Virus record (IMG/VR): IMGVR_UViG_3300035242_000035
Span: 17,073-81,072 of that record
Length of the DNA stretch: 64,000 nt
Strand: one strand, 5' to 3'
Source of the DNA: a virus
Each line of letters begins with the position of its first letter. The first letter of the stretch is position 1. The position numbers and the translations under genes are program-made. The notes beneath the pieces are model-generated. The model saw only the letters and a list, made by a program, of their open reading frames with translations, searched no databases and was not told where the DNA came from. This document shows, in pieces, positions 2,199-64,000 of the stretch.

Positions 2199-2348
2199 GT
2201 CCTCTCCTTTTCGGTGGTGCCGCGCCCGGAGGAACAAGCACCGCCGCCGGCCGGGGCCCCGGCGTCAGTCTGCGCCGAGGCGCCTTTATGCGGCCTCGTC
2301 GCCCTTACTTTCCGGTCAGGATCTTCACTCCTGCACAGCCGTCGAAAC

Positions 2349-2531
2349 TCAGCTCTCGTTCCTCTTCCGCAGCGCGGCGGCACGCTCGCGGCGCTTCGTC
2401 ACGATCGGCTCTTGGCTGTGCGGCATGTTCCGCCCGCCGAGTTTCCGGGTCTCCTCCTTCCCAAACCCCTCTTGTCTCGAGACTGCTCCGCACTTCGGAC
2501 ACGTCACCTTGCCGTCTGCCCGTGAGGACAT
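2349..2531 (-). CDS. small CPKCG zinc-ribbon protein, 60 aa
   Basis: The ATG is preceded by AAAAAGGAGAGGGGCG, an excellent ribosome site. The protein has one CPKCG knuckle (residues 11-15) and a very basic C-terminus (TKRRERAAALRKRNES). It is the first gene after the promoter at 2586-2613, with a leader of about 50 bases. About 150 bases without a convincing gene separate it from the next leftward start at 2198. Function unknown; a small nucleic-acid-binding accessory protein is the simplest guess. Confidence 0.65.
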   Translation of the reverse strand: MSSRADGKVTCPKCGAVSRQEGFGKEETRKLGGRNMPHSQEPIVTKRRERAAALRKRNES

Positions 2532-2585
2532 CGCCCCTCTCCTTTTTCTCGGCGGCCGGTGAGACCCGGTCGACCGATGGACCGA

Positions 2586-2613
2586 ACAATACGCACTCGG
2601 ATTCCGATTGCAA
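2586..2613 (-). promoter_or_regulatory. operator-type promoter, copy 1 of 3
   Basis: Read leftward: TTGCAA (2613-2608), a 16-base spacer, then TATTGT (2591-2586). The spacer holds the dyad TCGGA-A-TCCGA followed by GTGCG. The same layout occurs at 19918-19945 (+) and 25611-25638 (-). It lies between the HNH gene and the zinc-ribbon gene at 2531 and would start a distal leftward transcript. The dyad between the two boxes suggests a repressor or activator site. Confidence 0.7.
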
Positions 2614-2624
2614 GCAGAAATGGA

Positions 2625-3209
2625 TCAGGACCCCGATGCGCCGCCCGGCAGCCCCGCGCGCGTCTTTACAAACTCTGCTCTCGCCTTGGCCTTCTCCGCC
2701 TCTGGCGCGAACCCCTCCTCTTGAAGCCACCACGCGATGAAGCTCCACCAGAAGGCCGCGCTCGGTCGGTTGTTGGTGAATCCGATGTGGCACGCACGAC
2801 ACCAGGCGGCGCATGTGCGGACGGATTCCAGGAGACGACCGCGACCTCTTCCGAAGAGGTGAGACAATTCCGCTGGCGCGTTGTCGCACCGGCTGCCACC
2901 GCCCACCCCGAACCATAGCGGGCCCGGACCTTCACATCGGCCATTGGCGCGCTCGAACACACCTATCCGGATGGCAGCGCGACGGTCGCGGGCGCTCGCC
3001 CTCCTGGTCTTCACGGAGGACACTCGTTCCGCTCGCGTCGGCTTCGGGAGCGTCGTTGTGACCCTGACGGCGACACGGCCGCGGCGGCCAGCGAGTTGGA
3101 CCAGAGCCCCGGCCACCTCGCGCTCATCGCTCGCAGAAAGGCGCCCGCTCTCCTTGGCGATGCGGGCCGCCTCGGTGAGGGCGCCCAGCGCGCGCCGCGA
3201 CAGCCTCAC
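2625..3209 (-). CDS. HNH-fold endonuclease-like protein, 194 aa
   Basis: The GTG start at 3209 overlaps the ERF stop codon (GTGA), so translation is coupled. Residues 80-150 look like an HNH/zinc fold: RIGVFERANGRCEG begins the fold, LSHLFGRG supplies the likely first His, and CAAWCRACH a Cys cluster. The N-terminus is a helical segment with a run of Arg and Ala. HNH proteins beside recombination genes can be homing enzymes or recombination nucleases; the sequence does not decide. An internal promoter lies just after its end. Confidence 0.6.
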   Translation of the reverse strand: MRLSRRALGALTEAARIAKESGRLSASDEREVAGALVQLAGRRGRVAVRVTTTLPKPTRAERVSSVKTRRASARDRRAAIRIGVFERANGRCEGPGPLWFGVGGGSRCDNAPAELSHLFGRGRGRLLESVRTCAAWCRACHIGFTNNRPSAAFWWSFIAWWLQEEGFAPEAEKAKARAEFVKTRAGLPGGASGS

Positions 3210-4096
3210 GAGCTCTTGCCCTGGCTCGCGGTGATCCGGCGCTCCACCTCGGCGCCGAGCACCTCCAGGCACCTGTTCACCGCCGGAACCCAATCCGCCT
3301 TGGGGCTGTCGGCGACGGCCTTCCGGCCCTCCTCGAGCGCCTCAGTGACCGCCTCGTCGCTGAGCTGGACGATGGGCTTGCCCTTGTGCTTCCCGAAGAG
3401 AACGGTGGTCGGTGGTTTCGGGACGGGGTTGGCGTCGGTCCCTTTCCGCGCGGCAGCCTGGGCGGCCTGCTCGCGGGCCCGCTCCAGGTTGCTCTGTCGG
3501 CGCTCACCGTCCCAGGCGTTGCCGTCGTCGTCCTCGTCGTCCCCAGCGGCGACGCCGACCATCGCCGACAGCGCGTACCTGCGTGCATAGGTGAACGCAG
3601 CACCGATCGCCTGGATCCAGGTCTGCTTGTTGCCCAACTTGCTGACCACCCTCTCCATGGGGACCGTCAGCACGTCGAGCACCCACTGCCCGCTCGAGTG
3701 GGTCAAGAGGGTCGTCACGGTGACGCGCCCCTCCACGTCCGAGAGGTAGGAGATCTCGTGGGCGCGCTGGATGACCGCCAGCCCGTTCTTCGAGAGCGGC
3801 TCCCGGCAGGCGTCGATCACGGACGCGAGCGTGGCGTAGCGGGACCGCAGCTGGTCATTCTCCCGGTCCTTGGCGGCGTGGCGCATCTCGCCCTGTGCGG
3901 CGGCGAGCGCGGCGGCGAGCTGGTCGATCTCGACGGATTGGTGCTGAGCTCGCGCCTGCCCGTCCACGCGCTGCTGCTTGGCCCCCTCGGCGACGCGGGC
4001 GGCCGTCTCCTCCAGCAACTGCGCCACGTCGGGCAACCCGTAAAGACGCGCGCGCTTGGCGGCGTCAAGGAACTCCCTCGGTTCGATCTTGCTCAT
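3206..4096 (-). CDS. erf: ERF-family single-strand annealing recombinase
   Basis: The ATG at 4096 follows GGAAAGGAGAGGCAC; the open frame extends further upstream but lacks a comparable site. Residues 1-80 are a helical/coiled extension. The ERF core spans about 86-190, starting at RYATLASVIDACREPL and containing the family signature FTYARRYALSAMVG (168-181) followed by an acidic GDDEDDDG patch. ERF proteins (P22 Erf type) form rings and anneal complementary single strands, usually together with a 5'-3' exonuclease; the YqaJ-type nuclease next door fits that role. The C-terminal third is a linker plus a short domain with TVLFGKHKGKP, often seen appended to such proteins. Confidence 0.9.
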   Translation of the reverse strand: MSKIEPREFLDAAKRARLYGLPDVAQLLEETAARVAEGAKQQRVDGQARAQHQSVEIDQLAAALAAAQGEMRHAAKDRENDQLRSRYATLASVIDACREPLSKNGLAVIQRAHEISYLSDVEGRVTVTTLLTHSSGQWVLDVLTVPMERVVSKLGNKQTWIQAIGAAFTYARRYALSAMVGVAAGDDEDDDGNAWDGERRQSNLERAREQAAQAAARKGTDANPVPKPPTTVLFGKHKGKPIVQLSDEAVTEALEEGRKAVADSPKADWVPAVNRCLEVLGAEVERRITASQGKSS

Positions 4097-6159: not shown

Positions 6160-7016
6160 CCCCCAACTCCGGCGCCGGTCCCTGTCGCGCCCTCGGCGAT
6201 CATTCGGTCTAGTAGGTCGAGCGCCGACCGCTGGAGGCGCTCGACGGTGCCCGCGAGGGCTTGCTCGGCCGCGCTCCAGGCCGCGCTCTCGGCCGCGCTC
6301 TCGGCCGCGCTCCTGGCCGCGCTCTCGGCCGCGCTCCAGGCCGCGCTCTCGGCCGCGCTCTCGGCCGCGCTCCTGGCCGCGCTCTCGGCCGCGCTCCAGG
6401 CCGCGCTCTCGGCCGCGCTCCTGGCCGCGCTCTCGGCCGCGCTCCAGGCCGCGCTCTCGGCCGCGCTCTCGGCCGCGCTCCAGGCCGCGCTCTCGGCCGC
6501 GCTCCTGGCCGCGCTCTCGGCCGCGCTCCAGGCCGCGCTCCAGGCCGCGCTCTCGGCCGCGCTCTCGGCCGCGCTCAACGGGCCCTGAGCGTCCCCCGTG
6601 GTGGCGATGTCCACGATCTGCGCCAGCGAGCGGAGCGCGGCGGCCTCATTGTACAGATTCGCCAGCTCGAGCCAGGTGGGCGCGAAGGTGCGGACGTACC
6701 AGTCGATCGCGAGGTACGCCCGCCGCTTCTCGACCTCCGCCGGCGCTGCCGTGCCGACGAGCCGGAGCACGTACGGCTTGAGCCACTGGCGTCGCTCGTC
6801 GTCCAGGCTGTCGTTCCAGTCGCGCAGGAAGGCGCCAATGGACTCGCTCGCGCACCGCGGATGGTCGCTGTGCGGCTCGCGAGCGACGAAGGCCACCGCT
6901 TCCATCACGCAGCACCCGTCCTCTGGCGAACGGTGGGATCCGTGCGCGAGAGTGAGCCGCGCAAGGAACGTCTCTATCTCGGCCCGCCGCTCGGGGCCGA
7001 CGTCTGGCGCGCTCAT
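6156..7016 (-). CDS. conserved protein with a 26-unit SAAx tandem-repeat domain
   Basis: The ATG at 7016 overlaps the stop of the preceding small gene (ATGA). Residues 1-145 form a conserved domain of unknown role recognised from bacteria and phages (GCCVMEAVAFVA, then a WNDSLDD stretch and QWLKPYVLRLVGT). Residues 148-251 are 26 perfect four-residue units SAAE, SAAW or SAAR, encoded by a 12-base repeat, forming a very long Ala-rich helix. A short helical tail (QALAGTVERLQRSALDLLDRM) closes the protein. Similar Ala/Trp/Glu repeats occur in proteins labelled as putative immunity proteins, but no function is shown. The repeat number is probably variable through slippage. Confidence 0.8.
   Translation of the reverse strand: MSAPDVGPERRAEIETFLARLTLAHGSHRSPEDGCCVMEAVAFVAREPHSDHPRCASESIGAFLRDWNDSLDDERRQWLKPYVLRLVGTAAPAEVEKRRAYLAIDWYVRTFAPTWLELANLYNEAAALRSLAQIVDIATTGDAQGPLSAAESAAESAAWSAAWSAAESAARSAAESAAWSAAESAAESAAWSAAESAARSAAESAAWSAAESAARSAAESAAESAAWSAAESAARSAAESAAESAAWSAAEQALAGTVERLQRSALDLLDRMIAEGATGTGAGVGG
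6264..6575. repeat. 26 tandem copies of a 12-base coding repeat
   Basis: The plus strand reads CTC, CCA or CCT followed by GGCCGCGCT, 26 times without interruption (312 bases). On the minus strand each unit encodes SAAE, SAAW or SAAR. Only the first codon of each unit varies, so the backbone is nearly perfect at the DNA level, implying recent expansion or gene-conversion-like homogenisation. It lies inside the gene at 6156-7016 and keeps frame. Confidence 0.95.
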
Positions 7017-7497: not shown

Positions 7498-8415
7498 ATG
7501 CCGACCCGCATGCTCCACGAGTCGCTGCTCACCTCGCCGTCCCTCAAGGTCTGCAGCGCGCGTGCTCAGGACGCCTTCCACCGCTTCATCCTGCTGGCGG
7601 ACGATTTCGGCTGCTTCGAGGTTTCGCCGCGCCTGCTGATCGGGCGCGGCTGGCCCTACCGCAACGACGTCTCCGAGGAAGATGTTCTGGGGTGGTTGGA
7701 AGAGTATGGGCACGCGCGCTCGCCGGAAGATCCCGGCGCGGTGCCGATGGCCATCTTTTGGGTGGACGGAGGTAGGCGCTGGGGCCACCTAACCGGATGG
7801 TTCGGCCCGCACGGTCAGCGTAGGCGCGAGGAGTACAGCACCTCCAACCCGAAGGGGTCCAGACGCAAGACCCCGAGGCCTCCAGCTAACCTATTGGAAC
7901 GACTTCCCGCGGATTTCCCGCGAGACGGCCCGCGGGAAACTACCGGGAAATTCGGTTTCCCGCCGCTGCAGTCGCAGTCGCAGTCGCAGTCGCAGTCGCA
8001 GTCGCAGTCGCAGTCGCAGTTAGAAGATCTACGTCATGGTGTCCTCTTCCCCGAACTGCAACCCCCAAAGCGGGAGCGCAAGGAAAGCGAGGCCGAAGAG
8101 TGGTTTGAGGTGTGCGTTGAGGGCGAAAGGCGAGTGAAACTGCTCGAGGAAAACGGGGGGGACTTCGAAGTTGCGCCCCTACGTGCAGCCGAACGAGGTC
8201 TTACTGCGCCTTACATCAACGCCCAGGTGAAACGCCTCCGCGAGTGGGCGAAGCTGCCACTTTTTGGCGAAACCAAGGGACAGGTCGCCATGACTGCCGT
8301 CTGGTGTGCGTATCTTGACGACCCGGCGAACGCTGGGCGCGATCCGGCCTACAGCTTTCGTTACTTCTGCAGCGAGAACGTCTTCCAGAAGTACCTCGGG
8401 AGGGTGGCCGCATGA
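7498..8415 (+). CDS. phage replication initiator/helicase-loader-like protein
   Basis: The N-terminal 110 residues match a common phage replication-protein domain of winged-helix type: MPTRMLHESLLTS, FHRFILLADDFGCFEV, then GRGWPYRNDV. A low-complexity linker with eight Gln-Ser pairs (about 158-174) precedes a C-terminal helical domain. It is immediately followed by a DnaB-like helicase gene (ATGA overlap), as expected for an initiator or loader. No good ribosome site precedes the ATG, and the nearest promoter would give a nearly leaderless message. Exact mechanism (origin binding or loading) is inferred from position. Confidence 0.65.
   Translation: MPTRMLHESLLTSPSLKVCSARAQDAFHRFILLADDFGCFEVSPRLLIGRGWPYRNDVSEEDVLGWLEEYGHARSPEDPGAVPMAIFWVDGGRRWGHLTGWFGPHGQRRREEYSTSNPKGSRRKTPRPPANLLERLPADFPRDGPRETTGKFGFPPLQSQSQSQSQSQSQSQSQLEDLRHGVLFPELQPPKRERKESEAEEWFEVCVEGERRVKLLEENGGDFEVAPLRAAERGLTAPYINAQVKRLREWAKLPLFGETKGQVAMTAVWCAYLDDPANAGRDPAYSFRYFCSENVFQKYLGRVAA
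7969..8019 (+). repeat. hexamer repeat (CAGTCG)x8 encoding a Gln-Ser linker
   Basis: Eight perfect CAGTCG units plus a terminal CAG lie in frame inside the replication protein and encode alternating Gln and Ser between its two domains. Perfect hexamers keep frame when they change in number, so linker length can vary by slippage. Confidence 0.95.
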
Positions 8416-13710: not shown

Positions 13711-14414
13711 GTGAACGAGCATTCCAGGCGTATCGTCCACTCCAGCGAGGTGCAGAACTACGGGACGCCGCGTGACTTCTTCGCGTGGCTTCAGGCCGCC
13801 TTCGCGATGCAGGTGGACGCGTTCGCCGAGGACTGGAACGCCAAACTCCCGCGCTACTGGACCGTGAAGGACGACGGCTTCCGGATGCCGTGGGACGGGC
13901 TGAGGGTCTTCTACAACCCCGAGTACAACTCCACGTTGGACGCCGTGAACAAGGCCCGCGACCAGGCGGAACGCTTCGGCACATTGTCCGTGGGGCTCGT
14001 CGCCGCGCGCACGTCGAGCCACTCCGGGCGCGGGAAGGGCGGCTTCTGGGACCGCGTGAAAGCCAACTCCGGCCCGATGCGGCGGAGCTATTACCACGCG
14101 ACGCCAGGAGGGGCGGCGGACGTGCTGTGGATCTGCTGGCGCGGGCTGACCACGGGCATCTACTTCCACGATGACCGGCTTATCTTCGACCATCAGGCAA
14201 AGGACACCATCCAGGCGCCATGGTCATCTTCGCGCCGCCGGTCGGCGCGCCCATGCCGAAGCCACCGCCCACACGCGTGCCGCGGAAGCTCATCGTCCAG
14301 ATGGACGCCGAGGGCAGGGGCTATAGCCAGCGGCCGCTCCTCTCTGACGGGCAGCCGTGGGGGCGTGGGCCGCAAATGCCGGCGAGGATTATCGGAGGTG
14401 CTGTCGCCGCCTAA
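13711..14414 (+). pseudogene. Dam-type phage N6-adenine methylase, frame broken near 14218
   Basis: GTG start after AGGAAAGGAGACCCCAG. Residues 10-165 match phage DNA N-6-adenine methylases: YGTPRDFFAWLQ, the FYNPEYN motif (the DPPY-like catalytic NPPY position, here NPEY), LSVGLVAARTSS and IYFHDDRLIFD. At about 14218 the similarity leaves this frame: the expected final strand, MVIFAPPVG, is in another frame (14220-14414). One missing base near QAP would join them. Without repair the original frame stays open far too long, over the next gene. Either a sequencing slip, a real inactivation, or recoding. The Pro of the motif is also replaced by Glu, so activity is doubtful. Confidence 0.6.
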
Positions 14415-14455
14415 ATCTCAGGCGCGATGGCCCGGAGGCGGCCCCGTGTTTTGGT

Positions 14456-14479
14456 CCTCGTCCGCGCACACGGACGAGG
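14456..14479. other. 9-bp hairpin in the gap after the Dam-type gene
   Basis: CCTCGTCCG and CGGACGAGG pair perfectly around a six-base loop. There is no T-run on either side, so it is not a classical terminator. Just to its right, on the minus strand, is an orphan copy of the shared ribosome box (AAAGGAGAGG) with no credible gene behind it. Confidence 0.5.
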
Positions 14480-14575
14480 CACCTCTCCTTTCCCACGGGG
14501 CAGCCTCCTCTTTCAGAGCAGCACCGCGCCGGCATGACGCCGGTGCGGAACGAGCAGAACGGGAGGGTGAAGCAG

Positions 14576-14854
14576 ATGGCCAAGAGCCGAGGCAAGAGGC
14601 AGATGGAGATTCCCGGCACCGAGCAGAAGCAGATCAAAGAGGTGACCGACGCGGCCGAGGTCTACGAGGCGGTCCGGGACAAGCGAATGGCGCTCACCGA
14701 GAAGGAGACCGCGGCCATGGCGACGCTGGTCGAGGTGATGACCAAGCACAAGATCACCGCCTACAAGGACTCCAATGCCGTCCCGCCGCTGGTGGTGGTC
14801 GTGCAACCCGGCAAGGTGAAGGCCAAGGTCTCTAGGATCAAGGAAGACGAGTAG
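14576..14854 (+). CDS. conserved small phage protein, 92 aa
   Basis: ATG at 14576 preceded by GGGAGGGTGAAGCAG. The N-terminus (MAKSRGKRQMEIPGTEQ) and the pattern ALTEKETAAMATLVEVMTKHKITAY, followed by a Lys-rich beta tail, belong to a small protein family repeatedly found in phage replication regions. Function unknown. An in-frame ATG further upstream (14534) is less likely. Confidence 0.65.
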   Translation: MAKSRGKRQMEIPGTEQKQIKEVTDAAEVYEAVRDKRMALTEKETAAMATLVEVMTKHKITAYKDSNAVPPLVVVVQPGKVKAKVSRIKEDE

Positions 14855-14923
14855 GGCGGGGCTTGCCGGCCAGGCCTCCGGTCTGGCATCTTGGCGGCGT
14901 CGGAAAGGAGAGGTACCCAAACC

Positions 14924-14968
14924 ATGATGGTGTCCAGCCTCTGCGCACCCGCGAGGTGCGCTCGATGA
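14924..14968 (+). CDS. 14-codon leader peptide coupled to the C5 methylase
   Basis: The shared box GGAAAGGAGAGG is followed by ATGATG and a 14-codon frame (MMVSSLCAPARCAR) whose stop overlaps the methylase start (ATGA at 14965-14968). The methylase has no strong ribosome site of its own, so translation of this peptide probably delivers ribosomes to it. Confidence 0.45.
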   Translation: MMVSSLCAPARCAR

Positions 14969-17151
14969 GTGATCACGTCTTCACCGCACTGTTCCCGTTC
15001 TGCGGCCTCGGAGCTGGCGCTCGCGGCTTCATCGAAGCGATGGCCCATCTCGGCACGGACTCGGCTCGGTTCCTCAACCTCGGCGGGATCGACGTCGACG
15101 CGGAGAGTTGCTCCGACTTCGAGAGGTTGGCCGGCGGCCCAGCGCTCCGGGCCGACCTGCACTCGCTCACGCCGGCCGAGCTCATCGCCTGGCTGGTGGC
15201 GCAGCACGGGAGGAAGATCGCGGAGAGAAGGCCCGACGCCGTATTTCTGTCTCCGCCATGCAAAGGCATGAGCAGATTGCTCGGGACGAAGGCGGCAAGG
15301 GCCGAGAAGTATCAGCGCCTCAACGGCCTCGTGTGCGAGGGGCTGTTCCTCGTCCTGGAGACGTGGCCGGACGCCAGGCCGCCGCTGATCGTGCTGGAGA
15401 ACGTGCCGGGCATCGTCCAGCGCGGGGCCGAACTACTCGACCGCGCGCGGCGGATGCTGTCCGGGTACGGGTACGTCTTCAACGCGGCCACCCACGACTG
15501 CGGCGAGATCGGCGGGCTCGCCCAGCACCGCAAGCGCTTCCTGTTGGTGGCGCGCGACCCGCGCCAGGTGCCGGCGTTCGTCTACCAACCGCCGAAGAAG
15601 CGGGTGCGCGGGTGTGGCGAGGTGCTCGGCGAGCTCGCGCTCCCCGGCGACCCGGAGGCCGGACCGCTCCACCGGCTCCCGCTGATCGATTGGGTGAATT
15701 GGGTGCGGCTGGCGCTGATCCCCCCGGGCGGAGACTGGCGGGACCTCCCCCGCACCGTCCAACTCGCTGCCGACAACCCTAACCGTCACGAGGCGAAGCT
15801 GCGGGTCGAGGACTTCTCCCAGCCCGCGCATGCGGTGACGGGCGCCACGCGGCCGAACTCCGGCGCGCCCTCTGTTGCGGACCCGAGGGTGCTGGGCTTG
15901 AACTTGAGCCCCAACGCCCACAACAACCTCTATGTCGTGGGCGCGTGGGAGGAACCAGCGAAGACGGTGATAGGCGCTACCCGCCCGGGCAGCGGCGCTG
16001 CCGCTGTCGCGGATCCCCACCTAGAGAAACTCCAGCCGGGGCTCACGGCCACCAATGCGGGGACCTGGAAGGGTCGGCCGGGCTTCATGGGCGTGCTCGA
16101 CTGGCGGGAGCCGTCTCGGACGGTGGTCGGTCGCTCCTCTGTCAGCGGGGGTCATGCCAGCGCGGCCGTCGCCGAGCCGTTCGGCCACGTGAACCTGGTG
16201 CTCGGATGGGACCAACCGTCTGGCACGGTCACCCACGCCCCAGCGCCCAGCTCGGGTGGCGGCGCCGTCGCTGACCCGCGTGTGCCCGGGCTGGAGATCT
16301 CCGACTCATCCCGTGGCGGCGCGCTGGGGGTGATTGGTTGGGCCGAACCGGCACCCACCATCACCGGGAGCATGGAGCCCGCGCGCAGCAACACGCCGGG
16401 CTCAGTGGCGGACCCACGCTTCCGCGGCAGCCTGGGCGTGACGGCCTGGCAGGCGCCTGCTCGAACCGTCACCGGCGAGAGCTACCCGAGCAATGGGGCC
16501 GCCTCGGTCGCTGACCCGCGTCTGGTCTCGCCTGTTCAGCCAGGCCAAGCCCGTCGCGAGGTGATCGGCCGGCACCGGGTGCTCGACTGGCGGCACCCGT
16601 CCCCGGTGGTCGCCGGCCCCGGCAGCAACGGCGCGCAGAACATCGCCGACGTGAGGGCCGAGGCGCTCGTGCTCGGCTGCTCCCCGCGAGCCGGCGTGTA
16701 CGGCGTGCTGTCCTGGGAGCAGGCCGCGGCCACGGTGATCGGCGAGGCCCGGGTGGACAACGGCCGGTACGCGGTCGCCGACCCTCGGCCCGGCGATCCC
16801 GGTTGGCGCCCGCCGGAGGGGGTAATCCCGGTCATCATCTCACCGTGGGGCTGCTGGCACCGGCCGCTGACGACGCTGGAGCTGGCGGCGCTGCAGGGGC
16901 TCCCGGCGACGCTCAACGGCAAGCCGCTGGAACTAGCTGGCCGGGCAGTGTCCAGGTGGCGCGAGCGCATCGGCAACGCCGTGCCGGTCCAGGCCGGGAC
17001 CGCGATCGCCGTGAGCCTGCTGAAGGCGCTGCTCGCCTCCGCGGTCGGCCACTGGTCCATCCTCTTCGGGCCGGGCGGCGCCGCGGTGTGGGTCCGGGAT
17101 GACGGGCGGGACGAGCACGAGGTGGGCCCTTCGGAGGGGGTGTCTCCATGA
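14965..17151 (+). CDS. DNA cytosine C5-methyltransferase with eight repeats in the target domain
   Basis: 728 residues, about twice the usual length. C5 motifs are in order: I (ALFPFCGLGAGARGF, 8-22), IV (LSPPCKGMSR, 95-104, catalytic Cys99), VI (VLENVPGI, 143-150), VIII (LAQHRKRFLLVARD, 185-198), and near the end X (GNAVPVQAG, 670-678). Between VIII and the end lie eight repeats at about 283, 328, 379, 414, 458, 494, 541 and 583, each reading roughly W-x-x-P-x-x-TVxG followed by a Gly/Ser stretch and VADPR. That region normally holds the target-recognition domain, so several specificities may be encoded. Catalytic motifs look intact. It probably protects phage DNA from host restriction. Confidence 0.85.
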   Translation: MSDHVFTALFPFCGLGAGARGFIEAMAHLGTDSARFLNLGGIDVDAESCSDFERLAGGPALRADLHSLTPAELIAWLVAQHGRKIAERRPDAVFLSPPCKGMSRLLGTKAARAEKYQRLNGLVCEGLFLVLETWPDARPPLIVLENVPGIVQRGAELLDRARRMLSGYGYVFNAATHDCGEIGGLAQHRKRFLLVARDPRQVPAFVYQPPKKRVRGCGEVLGELALPGDPEAGPLHRLPLIDWVNWVRLALIPPGGDWRDLPRTVQLAADNPNRHEAKLRVEDFSQPAHAVTGATRPNSGAPSVADPRVLGLNLSPNAHNNLYVVGAWEEPAKTVIGATRPGSGAAAVADPHLEKLQPGLTATNAGTWKGRPGFMGVLDWREPSRTVVGRSSVSGGHASAAVAEPFGHVNLVLGWDQPSGTVTHAPAPSSGGGAVADPRVPGLEISDSSRGGALGVIGWAEPAPTITGSMEPARSNTPGSVADPRFRGSLGVTAWQAPARTVTGESYPSNGAASVADPRLVSPVQPGQARREVIGRHRVLDWRHPSPVVAGPGSNGAQNIADVRAEALVLGCSPRAGVYGVLSWEQAAATVIGEARVDNGRYAVADPRPGDPGWRPPEGVIPVIISPWGCWHRPLTTLELAALQGLPATLNGKPLELAGRAVSRWRERIGNAVPVQAGTAIAVSLLKALLASAVGHWSILFGPGGAAVWVRDDGRDEHEVGPSEGVSP

Positions 17152-62282: not shown

Positions 62283-63137
62283 ATGCAACGATTGACGGCG
62301 CGCGAGCGCTTCATGAGGAAGGTCGTGGTCGAGGTGGGCGAGCACTGGCGCTGGCTCGGGAAGGCCAAGAACGGCCGCGGGTGGTTTCGGTTCGCGAGCG
62401 GCGAGAGGCAGGTGCGCGAGGCGGACCGCGCAGCCTGAACGCTGTTCCGCGGGGACGTGCTGCCCGGCCACGTCGTCCGCTATTGCTCGGGCTGCGTCAA
62501 CCCGTGGCACGCTCGGCTCCAGCGGGCCGAGGAGTTCACTCAGGAGATTCGCCTCCCAGCCCCTCTGCGTGGCGAGGCCACCCCTCAGGCCAAACTCGAC
62601 GCGAAGACCGTCAGGCGCGTCGTTCGTCTATGGAACAGCGGGTGGACCGGGAGGCAAATCCGCGGGCGCATCGGGCCACGAGTGACCGTCCATGCCATCC
62701 AGGCGATCACCACCGGCCGGACTTGGCAGTGTCTCGACCTGGCGATCACCAGACAGCCACGGCGTGGGCGCTGGCGCACCGGCCACCAGGTGCTGACCGA
62801 CGTCGAGGTGATGATCGCGCGGCACCTCCACGCCTGCGGTTACGGCGTCCGCGAGTCCTGGCGCCGCTGCGGCACCAGGGCCGGCGAGGGTGCGACCACC
62901 CAGGCAATCAGCGGACGCACGTTCCGCCACCTGCCGCTGCCCGTGTACCCGAGGGAGGCGCTCGCGCTGCCTGGTAGCGCGGCCCTCGTCCGTGTGCGCC
63001 GTGCCGCTGACGTGTTCGTGGACCCCGAGGAGTACGCCCGCGCGCAGTTGCTCGACATCAGCGGCATCCCGGGCTCGGTGATCGACGACGTGGCCGGGAG
63101 CATGATCGAGCAGGAGCGCGAGAGGCGTGGTCGGTGA
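62283..63137 (+). pseudogene. HNH endonuclease gene with an in-frame TGA at 62436-62438
   Basis: GTCGAAAGGAGAGGACCG precedes the ATG. The 51 codons before TGA (FMRKVVVEVGEHWRWLGKAK) are the usual N-terminus of an HNH protein, and the same frame continues right after it with TLFRGDVLPGHVVRYCSGCV and NPWHARL, the rest of the HNH core. The expected residue at the stop is Trp (AAxTLFRG), so a TGG-to-TGA change explains it. The first catalytic His is also replaced (VVRYC). Two helix-turn-helix-like repeats follow (RQIRGRIGPRVTVHAIQAI; YGVRESWRRCGTRAGEGA). Probably inactive. Confidence 0.65.
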
Positions 63138-63783
63138 TGGACTACTACACCGGCCAGACCCGCGGCAGGCGCACCATCGCTCTCTGCAATGAGTTCGGGT
63201 TCGGCGAGACAACGCAGCCCTTTGATTCGTGGCCGCCACGCCGCTCGGTCTACCTGTGGGACAGCGGAGAATTCCACCGGTGGGTGCACGAGGTGCCGCT
63301 CGATGAGGCATGGGATACCAAGGTGCTACGTCACGCCTACCGGGCCATCGACCTCACCGGGCTCGGGCACCCTCCGGACCTGGTGGTCCTCCCCGACATC
63401 GTGGCCGGCGGCGAGGCGAGCTTGGTGCGGAGTTCGCGGTGGACGGCTCTCCTCCGGCGAACCGGGGGGGGCTGCTGCTCCCGGTGCAGGACGGCATGTC
63501 GTCGGAGCGGGTGTGGTCACAGGTCGAAGCGGATGGCCTCGCTGGGATCTTCGTCGGCGGGACCTTCGAGTGGAAGTGGGCGACATTGCCAAAGTGGGCG
63601 CGGGAGGCGCGCGATGCCGGCAGGCTCTGCCACGTCGGGCGCGTTGGCTCGCGACGCGACGTCTTCCGCGCCCAGGCAGCCGGGGCGACCTCGGCCGACT
63701 CCTGCCAGGGGCTCTGGTCGCACCACCAGCTGCGCAAGGTGCACCACGCACTGGCGCAGATGTCACTCCTGGCGGGGCCCTGA
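63137..63783 (+). pseudogene. DpdA/TGT-like gene with a frame break at a G8 run
   Basis: TGATG overlap with the HNH gene. Codons 1-109 contain SVYLWDSGEFHRW and PDLVVLPDIVAGGEASL. After the G8 run (63464-63471) the similarity continues in another frame with LLLPVQDGMS, GLAGIFVGGTFEWKWATL and HVGRVGSRRDVFRAQAAGA to the stop at 63783. One extra G rejoins the halves. These motifs match phage proteins related to tRNA-guanine transglycosylase (DpdA type), which insert 7-deazaguanine into DNA. No precursor synthesis genes are seen here. Either a sequence error or an inactive gene. Confidence 0.55.
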
Positions 63784-63820: not shown

Positions 63821-64000
63821 TCATCTCCGTCTCGGGCCGCCGTGGACCTCCTCCGCGCGCACCCGGTTGCAGAAGTCCACCAGAGCAGCGGAGCTCTCAG
63901 GGCGGTCACGCCCGCCATACCATTGCCACCGGCGCAGCTCGGCGCTCATCGCCCAGGCCCACTGGTGCGCATCGCAGAACTCCTGCCGGAGCGGCGTGGG
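63821..64000 (-). CDS. hypothetical protein, C-terminal 59 residues
   Basis: The gene enters from the right edge. The reading EFCDAHQWAWAMSAELRRWQ, then WYGGRDRPESS and FCNRVRAEE has the feel of a genuine protein (aromatic-rich helix). Its stop lies 38 bases beyond the convergent DpdA-like gene. Family unknown; start not visible. Confidence 0.55.
   Translation of the reverse strand, partial: PTPLRQEFCDAHQWAWAMSAELRRWQWYGGRDRPESSAALVDFCNRVRAEEVHGGPRRR

Follow-up and report, generated by a model that had tools for sequence, protein, structure and literature searches.

The clearest finding of this analysis is that the region 63137–63783 (plus strand) of the window, i.e., the 64,000-nucleotide stretch of viral DNA that was analysed (bases 17073–81072 of an IMG/VR record of 81,072 bases), is a single gene of the PHROG 15826 family that is read in two frames, joined at a run of eight G (63464–63471). 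An ordinary slip mutation, or a slip of sequencing, is the most likely origin of this break, over a switch built into the gene. The preliminary description had given exactly these limits for a gene with its halves in different frames meeting at eight G, and both the coordinates and the single split gene were confirmed. The record comes from a tailed bacteriophage, with portal, terminase and tail genes matched in it. Its first 127 bases are identical to the last 127 (window 63874–64000); the assembly therefore probably forms a closed circle, in which the split gene would not lie at a true end. No other mononucleotide run of at least eight bases was found in the entire record. The presence of a G or C run of this length somewhere in the window is unsurprising (under a trinucleotide model, the mean was 1.54 such runs of at least eight bases per window, and 79 of 100 simulations contained one or more), and what matters is the position of the G8. 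Tandem repeats were also seen at 6264–6576 (26.1 copies of a 12-base unit) and at 7968–8020 (8.8 copies of a perfect 6-base unit).

The two halves of the gene matched consecutive stretches of the same profile. The front half (63137–63472, plus strand, beginning with the ATG at 63137) covers positions 3–102 of the 212 in PHROG 15826 (E 0.0035) and carries the motifs D-S-G and P-D, and the back half (63463–63783, plus strand, in the other frame and ending with the TGA at 63781–63783) covers positions 107–201 (E 8.7e-14), with the motifs Q-D-G, V-G-G, H-V-G-R-V and S-x-D. A reverse search from the side of PHROG 15826 recovered the identical two places. The junction was scanned with two profiles, which agree that the break is on or beside the run. 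With the first, built from 75 relatives' ORFs from 87 loci (identical ORFs and those shorter than 190 aa were dropped), the front half scored 42.5 bits, the back half 102.4 and a frame change on the run 156.6, the top score among the junctions tried. With the second, made from 25 sequences of the window copy's own branch of the family, the top score was 170.0 bits for a junction at 63457, closely followed by 169.9 for one on the run, and the entire back-half ORF from 63310 gave 92.8 bits and the front half 65.5. A codon-usage model blind to the family also found that the coding frame changes at 63425 with no stop close by, and the G+C content of third positions, each half taken in its own frame, was 0.84 and 0.88. 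The profiles point in opposite directions on whether the run has lost or gained bases, each with a margin of about 2 to 3 bits. The earlier proposal that one extra G restores the protein does fit, as one among several run lengths that do so. Reading from 63137 crosses the joined ends of the record and reaches 295 codons, without the motifs that follow the run. The possible starts for the back half alone (63484, 63496 and 63511) would leave out the front motifs, and both products would presumably be inactive.

The gene immediately upstream is also interrupted. It is an HNH-endonuclease-like gene (62283–63137, plus strand) that shares one base with the start of the TGT-like gene and matches PHROG 826 over residues 3–79 (E 3.1e-12, with the stop taken as X). 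Inside the HNH-like domain there is an in-frame TGA (62436–62438, plus strand), indicated by the PHROG 826 scores (47.6 bits with the stop read through, against 33.3 for the part before it) and flagged by the codon model as well. The alignment to the HNH protein of Shigella phage Buco spans this codon. A reading of TGA as tryptophan was ruled out, since among 17 clear genes that were checked 13 end in TGA and the other four in TAG.

The frame split is not conserved in the family. The relatives were taken from the best 80 of 299 confirmed viral loci, 50 genome loci and 80 of the 92 loci of a second viral scan (the two viral scans overlap, with some contigs in both). The gene is continuous in a single frame in 202 of 217 loci (173 of 187 distinct ORFs), compared to two frames in the window copy. 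Five of the 15 others begin at a contig edge (L048, L056, L088, L156 and L158), two represent a single contig, where the front half of the gene has been replaced (L022 and L157), three have no front half in frame (L122, L129 and L134) and one has an in-frame stop (L130). The halves were in different frames in the remaining four, L107, L143, L150 and L221, always at differing places and unlike the window copy. In L150 (2685–3354, on a phage contig of 98.9 kb), which has the motifs of the window copy's branch, the best junctions were in and beside a C8 run (2776–2783); in L221 (gene at 2201–3306) the break lies in or beside a (TC)8 repeat (2942–2957); in L143 it is near a TTTTGTTGTTGTT stretch and in L107 at no clear repeat. 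The linker between the two halves varies in length among the 40 relatives inspected.

Judged from its sequence, the protein shows no clear decay. Compared with its own branch at 19 motif positions, the window copy departs only at N43, where it has S, as do 2 of 172 relatives. When every well-conserved position of the branch is counted, 5 of 38 are changed in the window copy, the second highest of 26, and 6 of 40 in the uninterrupted relative L194. Decay by loss of invariant residues had been considered because the window copy differed at 3 of 18 near-invariant positions, versus at most one in each of 75 relatives. This was dropped: the set omitted short ORFs (e.g., L022) and most of the window copy's branch, and that branch (25 relatives) commonly has two of the changes, N to G at 171 and G to S at 189. 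A protein without clear decay indicates that the lesion is either young or a sequencing error, and it fits a very recent lesion and a base-calling or assembly error equally.

PHROG 15826 is a family of unknown function, and the designation of the gene as DpdA/TGT-like is reasonable, albeit not proven, given the predicted fold of one relative. Neither half matched Pfam or NCBIfam, and the Pfam TGT domain (PF01702) matched neither half (E up to 1) nor anything in the whole record; it matched 1 of the 50 members of set A3 (E 0.03). PADLOC matched 0 of 50 members (E up to 0.1), and a sequence search of solved structures gave six weak matches, with no TGT among them. The model predicted for L016 was a TIM barrel (mean pLDDT 94) for which ranks 1–18 in Foldseek were all TGT (E from 2.3e-6, TM 0.6); a second look with VIA put TGT (Z 15.3) in a tie with pyruvate kinase (Z 15.9). 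The preliminary assignment to a DpdA/TGT-like family is supported as a reasonable label. The near-invariant motifs of the family are D-N-G, P-D, Q-D-G, F-V-G-G, H-V-G-R-V and S-x-D, and two of the motif aspartates presumably correspond to the TGT catalytic pair.

Homologues of the back half were found in two Erythrobacter phages, in Arthrobacter phage Aoka and in 154 plasmid records, and those of the front half in the same two Erythrobacter phages (the plasmid records were searched with the back half only). The Aoka homologue, gp40, is annotated as a DpdA-like tRNA-guanine transglycosylase, and both halves of the window gene match its family in order. The window copy belongs to a distinct branch, 26 of 173 sequences, in which two otherwise near-invariant positions differ from the main branch: G or S follows H-x-G-R-V, and S follows the aspartate of S-x-D (e.g., L142, L149, L162 and L175). 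In three of the five plasmid loci viewed (L007, L008 and L009) a gene of the phosphoadenosine phosphosulfate reductase family adjoins the TGT-like gene or is close to it. No close relative at the DNA level was found in phage records or with either half, although near records were possibly omitted, and none was found via the portal protein or the HNH-like protein. Judging by the family, an intact member would exchange guanine for 7-deazaguanine. Phages with DpdA alone, which lack preQ0 genes, have been described (PMC6884629). A likeness to the phage DpdA and DpdA2 proteins of 7-deazaguanine DNA modification (PMC6884629) is suggested by the TGT-like fold predicted for L016. On the side of differences, QueC and PTPS, the preQ0 pathway genes sought, gave no match in the record, and the halves of the window gene gave none to Pfam TGT.

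Other modification genes were found in the record: Mom-like, C5-methylase, helicase-methylase fusion and Dam-like. The Mom-like protein (L003, 3071–3895 in record coordinates, minus strand) matched Pfam Mom with an E of 1.1e-18. The C5-methylase gene (window 14863–17151) contains some eight repeats of the VADPR type, counted by eye, in a long insert. The Dam-like gene (window 13711–14835) matched Pfam Dam only over positions 11–100 of 169 and has the motif NPEY, the usual one in Dam-like methylases being NPPY; the codon model places an apparent change of its frame near 14215. It is possibly a third interrupted gene, with less certainty than the other two. The codon-usage scan flagged 18 segments, from which those at 63425, 62436 and 14215 were examined; eight other inner stops were the ends of listed ORFs (e.g., 38910, 33041 and 61868), and further interrupted genes may lie among the remaining segments.

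A full protein could be produced from the two frames by programmed −1 ribosomal frameshifting or by transcriptional slippage at the run, the latter suggested in the preliminary description. The heptamer G-GGG-GGC does stand in the correct frame. However, a homopolymer of at least six bases at the position of the run was present in 0 of the first 80 distinct ORFs of relatives, and the RNA downstream of the run is less stable than its shuffled versions (z +1.32; equal or greater stability in 185 of 200). A stimulatory RNA fold was looked for without success, and Rfam gave no match (E up to 1) between 63000 and 64000. Together with the continuous frame of most of the relatives, this led us to reject programmed frameshifting, and slippage in transcription is not supported on the same evidence; we regard any such event as very improbable.

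The run could also act as a contingency tract by which a modification enzyme is alternately expressed and silenced among the phages of a population. In its favour, L150, with the same branch motifs, is broken at C8 and L221 in (TC)8. Among the loci with a repeat of at least eight units, three of four are frame-shifted (the window copy, L150 and L221, the exception being L075), versus 2 of 185 without one (L107 and L143); this association (Fisher p 3.6e-5) comes from hand-entered counts with a cut-off picked after the data were seen, and it is predicted by slippage and equally by error at repeats. On the other side, the position of the tract is different in each case, and repeats are sparser in the family regions (11 in 122,808 bases, 0.090 per kb) than in the flanks (162 in 1,115,188 bases, 0.145 per kb), i.e., there was no enrichment over the 188 of 217 loci compared after near-identical ones were dropped. 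L150 and L221 are represented by one contig each; searches for a further contig in which the repeat has a different length found nothing for either, nor was a second copy of the window gene found, although near records were possibly omitted from this search. At other G/C runs of at least eight bases, a change of phase was seen at 1 of only 4 testable runs, too few for a background rate, versus 283 of 1353 random sites. Phase-variable tracts are usually longer than eight bases. There is no sign of selection for a tract, and we consider phase variation of this gene unlikely; it is similarly doubtful that phages carrying this family use simple repeats (the G8, the C8 of L150 and the TC repeat of L221) as slip-prone switches of modification enzymes. 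According to a survey of frame transitions, type III methyltransferase genes are known to vary in phase through poly-C and poly-G tracts (PMC3711429). The window gene shares with those cases a break of frame at a G-run in a gene of the DNA modification type, and differs from them in having neither a demonstrated variation in run length nor a conserved tract. Among the literature titles searched, none dealt with a frame-shifted or phase-variable DpdA.

A sequencing or assembly error, with the gene whole and the run length wrong in the record, is a possible if less than probable explanation. The lesion is a single indel at the sole homopolymer of at least eight bases in 81 kb, the protein is otherwise without clear decay, and the identical 127-base ends of this IMG/VR record look like an assembly overlap. 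Against this, short-read assemblies seldom miscount runs of eight bases, and the adjoining HNH-like gene bears an independent nonsense lesion, which a homopolymer error would not produce (it makes no TGA) and which speaks for a cassette that is genuinely decaying at this locus. The frame-transition survey expects singletons validated by homology to be sequencing errors and not genuine indels (PMC3711429).

The explanation that we put slightly on the probable side is a real and fixed indel, produced by slippage at the G8, that has switched the gene off. In its favour are the junction placed on or beside the run by both profiles, the uninterrupted frame of 202 of 217 loci, the neighbour's TGA, which is a lesion of the substitution type, and the tendency of frame-shifted members to break at repeats; the lack of clear decay in the protein counts against it. 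The gene would be an ordinary accessory member of a family of phages and plasmids with a TGT-like fold, and slipped-strand mispairing during replication of the G-run, situated in what appears to be a loop of variable length, may have caused the indel. Translation from 63137 would then pass the run in the wrong frame and give the 295-codon product that lacks the second group of motifs, with a presumable loss of activity in this copy of the genome. The two-gene cassette of the HNH-like and TGT-like genes is most likely dispensable for this phage, which keeps other DNA modification genes, since the neighbour also carries a stop. The loss of the TGT-like gene may cost the phage little because the Mom-like, C5-methylase and helicase-methylase fusion genes are retained.

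A single contig without reads cannot tell mutation, switch and error apart. If the length of the run is invariant, this would be one more accessory phage gene with a frameshift. If it varies in the population, the run would represent a phage-borne on/off switch for a DNA modification gene.
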